Assembly (NCBI GenBank): GCA_947623455.1
Contig: OX392527.1
Span: forward strand, 8,738,001-8,802,000
Reading direction: 5' to 3'
Length of the DNA: 64,000 bases
DNA from: Mimachlamys varia
Lineage: Eukaryota; Mollusca; Bivalvia; Pectinida; Pectinidae
In this document: piece by piece, positions 17,173 to 32,100 of the stretch
Layout of the letters: the number at the start of each line of letters is the position of its first letter
Position numbering within the stretch: the stretch's first letter is position 1
Made by a program: the position numbers and the translations under genes
Notes under the pieces: model-generated
The model's input: the letters and a program-made list of their open reading frames with translations, nothing else
Told to the model about the DNA's origin: nothing
Databases searched by the model: none

Positions 17173-20100
17173 CTGTATAAACAAAGACAACAACAAAATC
17201 AATAAGATAGGAATTTAAAAATTAGTCAGAAAATCTGTTATTTTCAGCTTTAACTTCAATCAATGTTCCATGTACATGTATACTCCCTCTGATATAATTA
17301 TGGTGACTTTCTGACACAGGATTCTGTCAGGCAGACCTTCAAATACAATTTGTTTTACTACAGAAATCTCAAACTAACCATTCTCTTCAAATACACTTTG
17401 TTTTACTACAGAAATTTCAAACTAATCGTTCTCTTCAAATACAATTAGTTTTACTACAGAAATCTCAAACTAACCATCCTCTGTTAACGACTTTCAGAAA
17501 CATTTGAATGATCTTTCAAATTTCATCATTTCAACTTTAATACCTTTATATCTTGTTAAACTTTTTGTCATTCTGTTTGGGAGATGAACTGACTTGCATG
17601 TTTTCGTGACTTTGGGAAATTATGTGACCTGCGTGTTTGGGAGATTAACTGACCTGCATGTTTGGGAGATTAACTGACCTGCATGTTTGTGAGATTAACT
17701 GACCTGTGTGTTTGGGAGATTAACTGACCTGCATGTTTGTGAGATTAACTTACCTGCGTGTTTGGGAGATTAACTGACCTGCATGTTTGTGAGATTAACT
17801 GACCTGCGTGTTTGGGAGATTAACTGACCTGCATGTTTGTGAGATTAACTGACCTGCATGTTTGTGAGATTAACTGACCTGCGTGTTTGGCAGATGAACT
17901 TACCTGCGTGTTTGGGAGATTAACTTACCTGCGTGTTTGGGAGATTAACTGACCTGCAGGTTTGGGAGATTAACTGACCTGCGTGTTTGGAGATTAACTG
18001 ACCTGCATGTTTGTGAGATTAACTGACCTGCGTGTTTGGCAGATGAACTTACCTGCATGTTTGGGAGATTAACTTACCTGCGTGTTTGGGAGATTAACTG
18101 ACCTGCATGTTTGGGAGATTAACTGACCTGCGTGTTTGGAGATTAACTGACCTGCAGGTTTGGGAGATTAACTGACCTGCATGTATGTGAGATTAACTTA
18201 CCTGCGTGTTTGGGAGATTAACTGACCTGCATGTTTGGGAGATTAACTGACCTGCGTGTTTGGAGATTAACTTACCTGCGTGTTTGGAGATTAACTGACC
18301 TGCGTGTTTTGGAGATTAACTGACCTGCAGGTTTGGCAGATGAACTTACCTGCGTGTTTGGGAGATTAACTGACCTGTGTGTTTGGGAGATTAACTGACC
18401 TGCAGGTTTGGGAGATTAACTGACCTGCAGGTTTGGGAGATTAACTGACCTGCATGTTTGGGAGATTAACTTACCTGCAGGTTTGGGAGATTAACTGACC
18501 TGCAGGTTTGGGAGATTAACTGACCTGCGTGTTTGGGAGATTAACTGACCTGCAGGTTTGGGAGATTAACTGACCTGCGTGTTTGGCAGATGAACTTACC
18601 TGCGTGTTTGGGAGATTAACTGACCTGCAGGTTTGGGAGATTAACTGACCTGCGTGTTTGGGAGATTAACTGACCTGCATGTTTGGGAGATTAACTGACC
18701 TGCGTGTTTGGCAGATGAACTTACCTGCGTGTTTGGGAGATTAACTGACCTGCATTTTTTCGTGACTTTGGGAAATTAACTGACCTGCATGATTTGGAGA
18801 TTAACTGACCTGCGTGTTTTCGCGAGTTTGCCTGTCGCCACATCTACAGTAAAGGAGAAAATGGAACCCTTGTCATCACCTGCCCACAGGATACGCCCCG
18901 TGGTATCGAAGGCCATGGCCGTGGCTTTCCCTGTCACCTTACTGCTTCCTCCCTGTAACAGATGGCACAGTGTCAACAAAGCCAGTGGCAACATTTACAC
19001 CAACGTTATTAACATGTCAAATTTTAGTACCTTATAACAATCATTATTGGTTTTGAATGTTTCAATTTCTTACAAAATTTAGAGTATTTGATTAATTATC
19101 AATATCAATGTGTTTACATATATTTATCGAATGTATGAATTGAAAAACAAGATGTTCAAGGGCCTTAGAGGTCAACTGATTTATACATTATAGGTACTGT
19201 TAACACAATTACAATAAAGGAAAAGAACCTTCAAAATTTTCAAATAAATCATTTTGCTGTCAAGAAATATAATATCTATTGTCATTTAGCCAATTTTTCT
19301 CTTGGGCCACCTTTGGGATAGGTCAGGGTCCCATTTATACTATTTGATTTCACTTTCATTGTAACTACTTCAAACTAGTTGGAGTTGTTCCTTGCTGAAA
19401 ATAGACGCCAAGATATAGTAAAAAGTATCATTTCTCTATACAAACCAAATGCATGGAGAACAGATAATCAAAAAGTAATAAAACTACTAAACTGTTTGTA
19501 TAATGTGACTTAAGGTCATTTCCATCCATAAAATAAAACTTGAATCTAGTTTGTGTAATATACAAGGAGTGCAGACCTAAAGAGTTGTGACCTACCTTGT
19601 TCCCTTTACCTGTAGACACGTTCATCATTAAGATCTCAGATACACAGAAGATACAAGGAGTTGTGACCTACCTTGTTCTCTGTACCTGTAGACACGTTCA
19701 TCATTAAGATCTCAGATACACAGAAGATACAAGGAGTTGTGACCTACCTTGTTCTCTGTACCTGTAGACACGTTCATCATTAAGATCTCAGATACACAGA
19801 AGATACAAGGAGTTGTGACCTACCTTGTTCTCTGTACCTGTAGACACGTTCATCATTAAGATCTCAGATACACAGAAGATACAAGGAGTTGTGACCTACC
19901 TTGTTCTCTGTACCTGTAGACACGTTCATCATTAAGATCTCAGATACACAGAAGATACAAGGAGTTGTGACCTACCTTGTTCTCTGTACCTGTAGACACG
20001 TTCATCATTAAGATCTCAGATACACAGAAGATACAAGGAGTTGTGACCTACCTTGTTCCCTTTACCTGTAGACACGTTCATCATTAAGATCTCAGATACA

Positions 20101-29100: not shown

Positions 29101-32100
29101 AGTAACTGGTAAGTTCTTTCTGTTCATTCCACTGTTTCCTTCCAGAACAAGTACAGGTACAAATACTTTGGGTCCGGAATAATTTTCAATTTCCGATATT
29201 ACATTAGTGAGCATGTCTTGACAGCAGGCTAATCTACAGCAGTTCTTTCCTATAATAAAGAATACCTGGGACCTAGAACAAGACTTTATTTGATATGTAC
29301 ATTAGTGACAGGCCAGCTAGACGATCTCCAGCTGTGACTATTTCACACCTGTTGTATAATCATAATAGAACTCCTCACACCGGTGTCGGCCGGTAAAAAC
29401 ACGGCCCATACTTAATCCCCTACACTCGTCACACCGGTGTCGGCCGGTTAAAACACGGGCCATACTTAATCCCCTACACTCGTCACACCGGTGTCGGCCG
29501 GTTAAAACACGGGCCATAATTAATCCCCTACACTCGTTGCCGGTGTCGGGTGTTGGTTGGTTGAAACACGGGCCAAACATAATCCCCTACACTCGTCGCT
29601 GGTGTTGGGTGTTGGTTGGTTGAAACACGGGCCATACTTAATCCCCTACACTCGTTGCCGGTGTTGGATGTTGGTTGGTTGAAACACGGGCCATACTTAA
29701 TCCCCTATACTCGGTTGACACCCAACACCCGCACAGTTGTTCAGTACCACAATACTTGACACACACTGTACATTAGAATCCCTTGTCTAATTTGTTACAG
29801 ATCAGTGCCGAGTAATTTTGATGATGTATCTCTTGTTAACTGACCTGCTGGCTTCAGCCTCTCGGGTAGGTACCACTTCTATACTGTCATATACACGCTT
29901 CATCGGGCCCTCGTACATATGTTTAAATGACCCGCCGCTCTGGTGCCGCCTGTGGTGCTTCTTCCCATCTACTCCAATCGCTAGGTTGTCAAAACTCTGC
30001 ATTGAAGTTTTTATCGTAAATTACAACTCCATCAAATTGTCTTTAAACAATGAAATAATTTCATACATAAGCTTATGTATCAATTTTTGGTAAAGCATTG
30101 ACATACGAGTGAGTAACAAATATTACCCCTTGTACTTATCTTGACAAAATCAGTTTTTCTGTAAAAATTGTGCATTGTGACCGATTCATATTTTAGCAGA
30201 GCACAACTCAGTACAATATTTTCCTCCATTTTGTTTTCACTCAGTACAATATTTTCCTCCATTTTGTTTTCACTCAGTACAATATTTCCTTCCATTTTGT
30301 TTCTACTCAGTACAATATTTACCTCCATTTTGTTTCTACTCAGAACAATATTTACCTCCATTGTGTTTCTATAGTACAATATTTACCTCCATTGTGTTTC
30401 TATAGTACAATATTTACCTCCATTGTGTTTCTATAGTACAATATTTACCTCCATTGTGTTTCTATAGTACAATATTTACCTCCATTGTGTTTCTATAGTA
30501 CAATATTTTCCTCCATTGTGTTTCTATAGTACAATATTTACCTCCATTGTGTTTCTATAGTACAATATTTACCTCCATTTTGTTTCTACTCAGAACAATA
30601 TTTACCTCCATTGTGTTTCTATAGTACAATATTTACCTCTTTTGTGTTTCTATAGTACAATATTTACCTCCATTGTGTTTCTATAGTACAATATTTACCT
30701 CCATTGTGTTTCTATAGTACAATATTTACCTCCATTGTGTTTCTATAGTACAATATTTACCTCCATTGTGTTTCTATAGTACAATATTTACCTCCATTGT
30801 GTTTCTATAGTACAATATTTACCTCCATTGTGTTCCTATAGTACAATATTTACCTCCATTGTGTTTCTATAGTACAATATTTACCTCCATTGTGTTTCTA
30901 TAGTACAATATTTCCCTCCATTGTGTTTCTATAGTACAATATTTACCTCCATTGTGTTTCTACTGATGCTTCTGATGCTGAATGACCTGCTCCTGATACT
31001 CCTGAAATATAAGGTGATGATATACAACTGTTAATCACAGAGATGTTACAACTGTATTGGACAATGCCATCTGTGTCACCATCATACTCTCATGTTTCTT
31101 AAATCTGATCATCTTTAAGTTAAAAAAAAAATATTTTAAAGATTATAAATTTGACTCCTGTGATCTTGAAATAAGGTAAAGATTTATTTAAAGAAATTTT
31201 ATAGCACTCTGCCCCAGTCCCACTGGCCAAATTTAGAGGATGTCATTTACAGTAAAAGATTGAAGGATGACAGACGCTGCACCATGATATGAGGTCACCT
31301 GGTCCTAAGGGGCGAAACGAGATAAAAAACTTGCTAGGATTACCAAGTATAACCAAGTACAACCAAGTTATCCAACTTATGTGAGACCTGGAACCTATGA
31401 CTATCAATACTATTTAATGTATAGAGAATAACGAGAAAATTAACAGTTGAGTTTTACCACAATATGAGTTCAATAAGTAATGTAAGAAAAGAATACCCCT
31501 GGTCAGAAAATGCTGGACTTCCGTATCTTGATGTCAACAGCTGGGCCCTCTGGTGGAGGTATTCCTTGCGAACAGCTGGATCCCGTTGCTGAAACAGTTC
31601 AAGACTGGAATTATCTTAAACATTAGATAATGAGGTGTCTAATAGATACTGCTTTAGAATATATATCAAAGTAAATCAATTGAAGTTTCATATAAACTTA
31701 TGATATACTAATATATTTGATAAGGAACATGTACTGAAGTGCCCTGTCAAGTGTCACATCTGATTTCAGATTGATCTTCATTACTAAAAAGAAGCCCAAA
31801 CTACGTCATAATGTTCAAAAGAGTTTAACAGTTTGAGATGAAAGAATAAATGAATGATGGTACCAAAATATAAATCAATTTAAGTAAACGTACCTATCAA
31901 TTCCCCAAAGTTTCAGTAAGAATAGTTGATTAAAACTTGGTTATAACTTTGAACAGATTTACATCACAATTCAAACCAGCTTTAGATTGTCAAATTGATC
32001 AGATCCATGCGCTTAACACTTCCACGAAGTTTCAACATGAGGCCAATTACAATATCTTGTGTTTCCACTAACTTATATTAATATACCACAGAATAGAATT

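Follow-up and report, generated by a model that had tools for sequence, protein, structure and literature searches.

Minisatellite-like arrays spanning exon-intron junctions in WDR13 and other genes of a scallop genome

In the WDR13 gene of the scallop Mimachlamys varia, three introns are largely occupied by tandem arrays whose repeat unit includes the end of the preceding exon together with its own 5' splice site, which raises the question of how so many copies of a splice junction arise and persist in a gene with a conserved protein product. The gene lies on the minus strand (17053-35500) of the window, that is, the 64-kb stretch C1:8738001-8802000 (contig OX392527.1, here C1) of a 975-Mb assembly in 71 contigs; positions below are those of the window unless prefixed with C1. 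An earlier note on this DNA proposed that the donor junction acted repeatedly as a seed for tandem duplication. The answer that we favor, with a rough probability of 0.6, is that these are junction-spanning minisatellites akin to the 'mirages' of amphioxus: ordinary duplications across junctions, expanded and tolerated in a repeat-rich genome.

Donor-spanning arrays in WDR13

The 11 WDR13 exons in the window encode 382 residues, 374 of which are identical to those of WDR13 from the scallop Ylistrum balloti (P0001), the top match among the 516 relatives listed; the exon chain aligns to P0001 without insertion, and the remainder of this protein has its matches on the same contig, to the left of the window. 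A search of the whole genome with P0001 yielded 14 matches, 12 on this stretch of C1 and two weak ones on C17 (31% and 24% identity).

Both Tandem Repeats Finder (TRF) and a scan for junction copies bear out the observation of the earlier note that the units in introns 4, 9 and 10 join the end of the preceding exon to the native donor (Table 1). The exon contributes 16 bases to the 31-mer of intron 4 and about 18 to the 33-mer (the latter read by eye), 34 to the unit of intron 9, and 7 to the 25-mer of intron 10, whose array also includes a longer far-end copy with 21 exon bases. The two-base unit variants were identified from copy spacing, and the extent of the intron 10 array combines TRF rows 17611-18753 and 18707-18830 with a left end set by eye. 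The arrays make up fractions of 0.78, 0.77 and 0.85 of introns 4, 9 and 10, respectively, a second small array being included in the last value. Each array had been described as starting exactly at the donor; the first copy is indeed the authentic junction, so that the array itself begins within the exon.

When a junction copy was defined strictly, as 8 exon plus 12 intron bases with at most 3 mismatches, introns 4, 9 and 10 contain 23, 21 and 48 such copies, respectively, and the same scan of the 7 other tested donors and the 10 tested acceptors of WDR13 detected none. Looser rules give 98 decoys over the three arrays, 93 of them with GT, close to the roughly 100 decoy donors estimated previously. 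In intron 10, where the unit has AG immediately 5' of GT, 11 copies read CAG/GTAAGT (the slash marks the splice position). Under a donor weight matrix written from general knowledge, 18 of 23 decoys in intron 4, 12 of 26 in intron 9 (for which the scoring scan took 27 copies) and 46 of 48 in intron 10 equal or exceed the authentic donor in score. For 92 of the 93 GT decoys, splicing at the decoy was computed to introduce a stop no later than the end of the following exon.

To estimate the contribution of chance, each array was collapsed to one unit and placed randomly on the collapsed gene. The three donor-spanning arrays of WDR13 compare with an expectation of 0.44 (P = 0.0075); under other assumptions on former intron length, acceptor zone and array set, the donor P value ranges from 0.002 to 0.23. 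For arrays at any WDR13 junction (3 observed), P is 0.049, and for the three genes of the window together, 4 junction-spanning arrays were observed against 1.0 expected (P = 0.014). All these P values are post hoc because WDR13 was chosen for its arrays.

Table 1. Junction-spanning arrays, the adjoining exons and other WDR13 arrays in the window
Feature	Position	Strand	Description
WDR13 intron 4 donor-spanning array	30210..30962	-	unit 31/33 bp; 24 copies including the authentic one, 19 with GT; TRF and junction scan
WDR13 intron 9 donor-spanning array	19582..21740	-	unit 76/74 bp; 28 copies including the authentic one, all with GT; TRF and junction scan
WDR13 intron 10 donor-spanning array	17560..18830 (approx.)	-	unit 25 bp; 49 copies including the authentic one, all with GT
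WDR13 exon 4	30947..31001	-	last 16 bases form the first copy of the intron 4 array
WDR13 exon 9	21707..21766	-	last 34 bases common to exon and intron 9 array
WDR13 exon 10	18810..18952	-	last 7 bases in the 25-mer; 21 in the longer far-end copy
RAC1 intron 2 acceptor-spanning array	42621..42961	+	unit 28 bp; 5 decoy copies; interrupted by about 160 bp of other sequence
RAC1 exon 3	42946..43063	+	first bases recur upstream in the array
WDR13 intron 2 array	32434..33017	-	unit about 46 bp; 15-bp gap to the donor; without junction
WDR13 intron 7 arrays	22478..25783	-	units 26 bp and 34 bp; 39 bp from the donor; without junction
WDR13 intron 5 array	26876..28379	-	unit 44 bp; clear of both junctions

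Junction-spanning arrays at donors and acceptors

The other two genes of the window, RAC1 on the plus strand and NDUFAB1 on the minus strand, were scanned for junction copies in the same manner as WDR13. Altogether, such copies are present at 4 of the 34 tested junctions of 17 introns in the three genes and absent from the other 30; the fourth case is an acceptor, that of RAC1 intron 2, where the unit comprises 9 intron bases including AG and about 15 exon bases. Given that unrelated sequence splits this array, the array may predate the insertion. The insert (42720-42880) looks tRNA-like by eye; the tRNA search found none, and neither this nor the Rfam search gave a match anywhere in the window.

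An independent sample was drawn from a single gene family. A Pfam WD40 search of the same genome produced 149 matches, of which 96, in 60 loci, were examined and the other 53 left out, giving 192 exon edges; 20-mers across each edge were sought again within 2.5 kb of flank. The edges of unflagged exons are approximate, junctions and gene names are sequence-based, and about 7 of the 96 matches share an open frame with another match, so that exons are slightly overcounted. The test flagged 15 of the 192 edges (2 in the first batch and 13 in the second); the donor sides of loci L040, L041 and L057 were then dropped as intron-only upon inspection by eye. Junction-spanning arrays thus occur at 12 of the 192 edges, in 10 of the 60 loci: at 5 of 96 donors (L015, L038, L048, L052 and L056) and 7 of 96 acceptors (L001, L021, L028, L038, L044, L052 and L057). 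The two batches differ, with 2 of 88 edges in the first and 10 of 104 in the second. A comparison of the window with the first batch (3/20 vs 2/88, P = 0.043; 4/34 vs 2/88, P = 0.050) was made before the second batch and is not usable alone.

The sampled units range from 21 to 116 bp, the longest many-copy unit being that of L001, with 81 bp that include the acceptor and 37 exon bases, and with 25 decoys, 24 of which have AG. Among the sampled donor decoys with GT, 72 of 77 match or exceed the authentic donor in score. In L038 and L052, a single exon has junction-spanning arrays at both its acceptor and its donor. By similarity to solved chains, the affected genes resemble TBL1XR1 (L001), POC1 (L015), SPAG16 (L021), PLRG1 (L028), THOC3 (L052), WDR70 (L056) and TAF5 (L057); the likeness of L044 to WDR12 is weaker, other WD40 chains scoring higher, and for L048 the same comparison gave no gene assignment. 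L038 we take to be WDR37.

Junction-spanning arrays are, then, common in this sample and show no donor bias. This result bears directly on donor-specific seeding, for example by R-loops or U1-linked breaks at exon 3' ends, as the earlier note had suggested. WDR13 itself fits such a mechanism, with three donor-spanning arrays and none at the 10 tested acceptors, but the acceptor array of RAC1 and the 7 acceptors versus 5 donors of the sample do not; acceptors are affected at least as often, evidence against any mechanism that depends solely on U1 or on exon 3' ends, and we consider donor-specific seeding very improbable. An assembly artefact is conceivable in that long arrays are generally difficult to assemble, but the copies bear ordered sequence variants, the contigs are large, and the pattern was found again in 10 of 60 other loci, so that this explanation appears exceedingly improbable.

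Probable origin and tolerance of the arrays

If the arrays arose as ordinary minisatellites, the first step would be a short tandem duplication, with a unit of about 20-120 bp that happens to cross an exon-intron boundary, probably caused by slippage or by end-joining at a few shared bases. The array would then expand, a step whose outcome is visible in the genome, with a maximum of 49 copies, a homogenized core and older-looking copies at the far end. Finally, the array would be tolerated provided that splicing takes the exon-proximal site, i.e. the donor lying farthest upstream or the acceptor lying farthest downstream; tolerance is expected because the copy flush with the exon holds the whole coding end and the splice site. 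The suggestion of the earlier note that arrays leaving one donor intact are tolerated is thereby retained as a possible cause.

The order of copies is consistent with this course of events. The most distal copy in intron 9 is identical to the authentic junction at 49 of 51 positions; it differs from the last 35 exon bases at 2 positions, compared with 2 to 15 in the other decoys, two inner ones also having 2. In intron 10, a far-end copy agrees at 30 positions with a 35-base stretch of exon end and donor, of which 21 bases are exonic, and in intron 4 most of the 33-mers, with their slightly longer exon piece, sit at the far end. Far-end copies with a longer or closer exon match suggest that the junction was duplicated first and that shorter variants were amplified later. 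Short words common to the unit borders, CAAA in intron 10 and AGT in intron 4, suggest slippage or microhomology.

With respect to splicing, nearly all GT decoys would bring a stop and many are donor-like in score, yet the WDR13 protein is conserved, which favors the tolerated-minisatellite explanation and suggests that the exon-proximal copies are the ones spliced. For the protein to stay intact, the innermost site must be taken on the donor and the acceptor side alike, so that site choice would most likely follow exon definition rather than pairing across the intron.

Alternatively, the decoys could be functional, either as a series of sites for alternative or recursive splicing or in regulation by nonsense-mediated decay. 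The retention of GT or AG in nearly all copies, the stop that nearly every GT decoy brings, and the intron 10 unit that places AG right before GT would all be compatible with such a role. However, the donor 9-mer shows no consistent extra conservation relative to the rest of the unit across the three WDR13 arrays, with 9 of 31, 58 of 76 and 3 of 25 windows conserved at least as well in introns 4, 9 and 10, respectively; selection on decoy donors was accordingly rejected, although every copy of two arrays has GT. Moreover, unit lengths and genes are unrelated, and amphioxus mirages are reported to be splicing-neutral (PMC3087553). Functional decoys therefore appear quite improbable.

Several observations weigh against tolerated minisatellites as the full account. 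The number of spanning arrays expected in the WD40 sample is 2.7 to 5.4 (3.3 in one setting), as calculated from how densely other arrays occur around these edges; further exons in the flanks enter the estimate through a factor. Against this, 12 were observed (P from 2.5e-5 to 0.01), or 10 under a TRF rule with minima of 2.5 copies and 7 exon bases (P from 0.0005 to 0.05), or 9 with automatically chosen edges (P from 0.008 to 0.10). Under most settings this is an excess over random landing, so that tolerance alone may not suffice. In addition, GT is intact in 28/28 copies of intron 9 and 49/49 of intron 10, the donor window of intron 10 ranks 3 of 25 for conservation, and the microhomology at unit borders is a reading by eye only.

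The excess could be mutational, boundaries of both kinds being favored for tandem duplication, for example through breaks where composition or chromatin changes at the edges of transcribed exons. The 10 to 12 spanning arrays at P values of 2.5e-5 to 0.05, the three arrays in the single gene WDR13, and the sampled exons with arrays at both ends are in line with such a bias; with the 9 automatically found arrays, however, P rises to as much as 0.097, the batches are unequal, the sample is a single gene family with approximate exon edges, and other flanking exons are handled by a factor only. We regard junction-biased mutation as a serious but rather unlikely alternative. The enrichment test that the earlier note proposed has thus been run in part: exon edges of both kinds are probably enriched 2- to 4-fold in arrays, the P value varying with the rule between 3e-5 and 0.1. 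Any real preference of duplication for exon edges would be mild and would not be specific to donors.

Ordinary array birth is frequent in this genome. Of the 11 WDR13 arrays considered (from TRF), 8 span no junction; the arrays of introns 2 and 7 were evaluated as decayed donor arrays and rejected, given their distance from the donor and the absence of the junction from their units. The nearer edge of the array lies on the donor side in 6 of the 7 array-bearing introns of WDR13, too few to indicate a donor-side bias. Large arrays also lie between RAC1 and NDUFAB1 (48183-51607 and 53685-54732), so array birth is not limited to introns. Tandem repeats make up 18.3% of the first 20 sampled loci, and 21.7% is reported for the scallop A. 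pleuronectes (PMC10225492). The junction arrays rest on a high general rate of array birth.

Some further features of the window belong to the same genes. A 56-bp satellite with about 297 copies by TRF (1-16626) lies inside WDR13 intron 11, which is about 24.6 kb long, the remaining exons being at C1:8729814-8730442, left of the window; as a donor array of exon 11 it was rejected, its unit lacking the exon 11 junction (by eye only). Directly past the last exon and outside the window, C1:8729717-8729797 is a second match, at 74%, to WDR13 residues 461-487, which may reflect a partial tandem duplication at the end of the gene. Intron 8 of WDR13 (21767-22115), with the donor GTATCCTTT and CCTTAAC just before the acceptor, is presumably of the U12 type. 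Upstream of the NDUFAB1 exon, an open frame at 56466-56639 resembles by eye a second acyl-carrier-protein exon and is possibly an exon duplicate.

Site choice and known boundary-spanning repeats

The choice between identical splice sites has, as far as is known, been studied mainly with constructs; a literature search on competing identical splice sites returned no papers. Here, natural genes have, next to an authentic donor or acceptor, between 2 and 48 decoys nearly identical to it, most of them scoring no weaker; if splicing stays accurate, site choice must come from position and exon context. A broader and tentative proposition, in our view possible but short of probable, is that scallop junctions of both kinds are preferred duplication sites, that several percent of edges genome-wide have arrays of competing sites, and that the spliceosome picks the exon-proximal one. 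If such a junction preference held genome-wide, this genome would be a large natural test set for identical-site choice. The observations also suggest that boundary-spanning minisatellites can be frequent in the genome of a bivalve, where they add to intron length and supply material from which new exons could form.

A human minisatellite is reportedly similar in that, by the title of a 1995 report by Turri, which is cited in PMC4526556, it provides multiple splice donor sites in an interferon-induced transcript. Repeated donors supplied by a minisatellite would be the common feature, whereas there the donors are provided to a transcript and the scallop copies are putative donors.

Multiplication of splice signals by tandem duplication also underlies intron gain from AGGT-bearing exon segments (PMC4974935), but there a new intron forms within an exon, whereas in the scallop existing introns are lengthened at the edge. 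In human segmental duplications, minisatellites at exon-intron boundaries likewise alter intron/exon structure, but these average about four 30-bp units and belong to recent paralogs (PMC2812944). The intron repeats of earthworm metallothionein do not span a boundary as far as described (PMC12783039). Among the open-licence papers listed by our searches, we recognized no bivalve or mollusc case of a boundary-spanning array.

The closest counterpart is found in amphioxus, where tandem repeats spanning exon-intron boundaries have already been named mirages (PMC3087553), contrary to the statement in the earlier note that no such class had been described; they occur in Adh3, the globins BflGb6 and BflGb9, and PGBD5 (PMC3087553, PMC3902484). 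In both animals, the units are minisatellite-like (25, 31/33, 76/74 and 28 bp in the window) and cross the authentic boundary with both exon and intron sequence (here in WDR13, RAC1 and at the 12 sampled edges), 5' and 3' boundaries are both involved (3 donors and 1 acceptor in the window), and AG or GT is kept in many copies (93 of 98 WDR13 decoys with GT). In amphioxus, the end copies escape homogenization (PMC3087553, PMC3902484), and undisturbed splicing and length instability were tested there, whereas the scallop arrays are known from one assembly. The class of arrays is thus already known; what is new here is its occurrence in a bivalve rather than a cephalochordate, at high frequency, at both junction types, and with up to 48 decoys per site, the arrays reaching 49 copies compared with 6 in the globin example.

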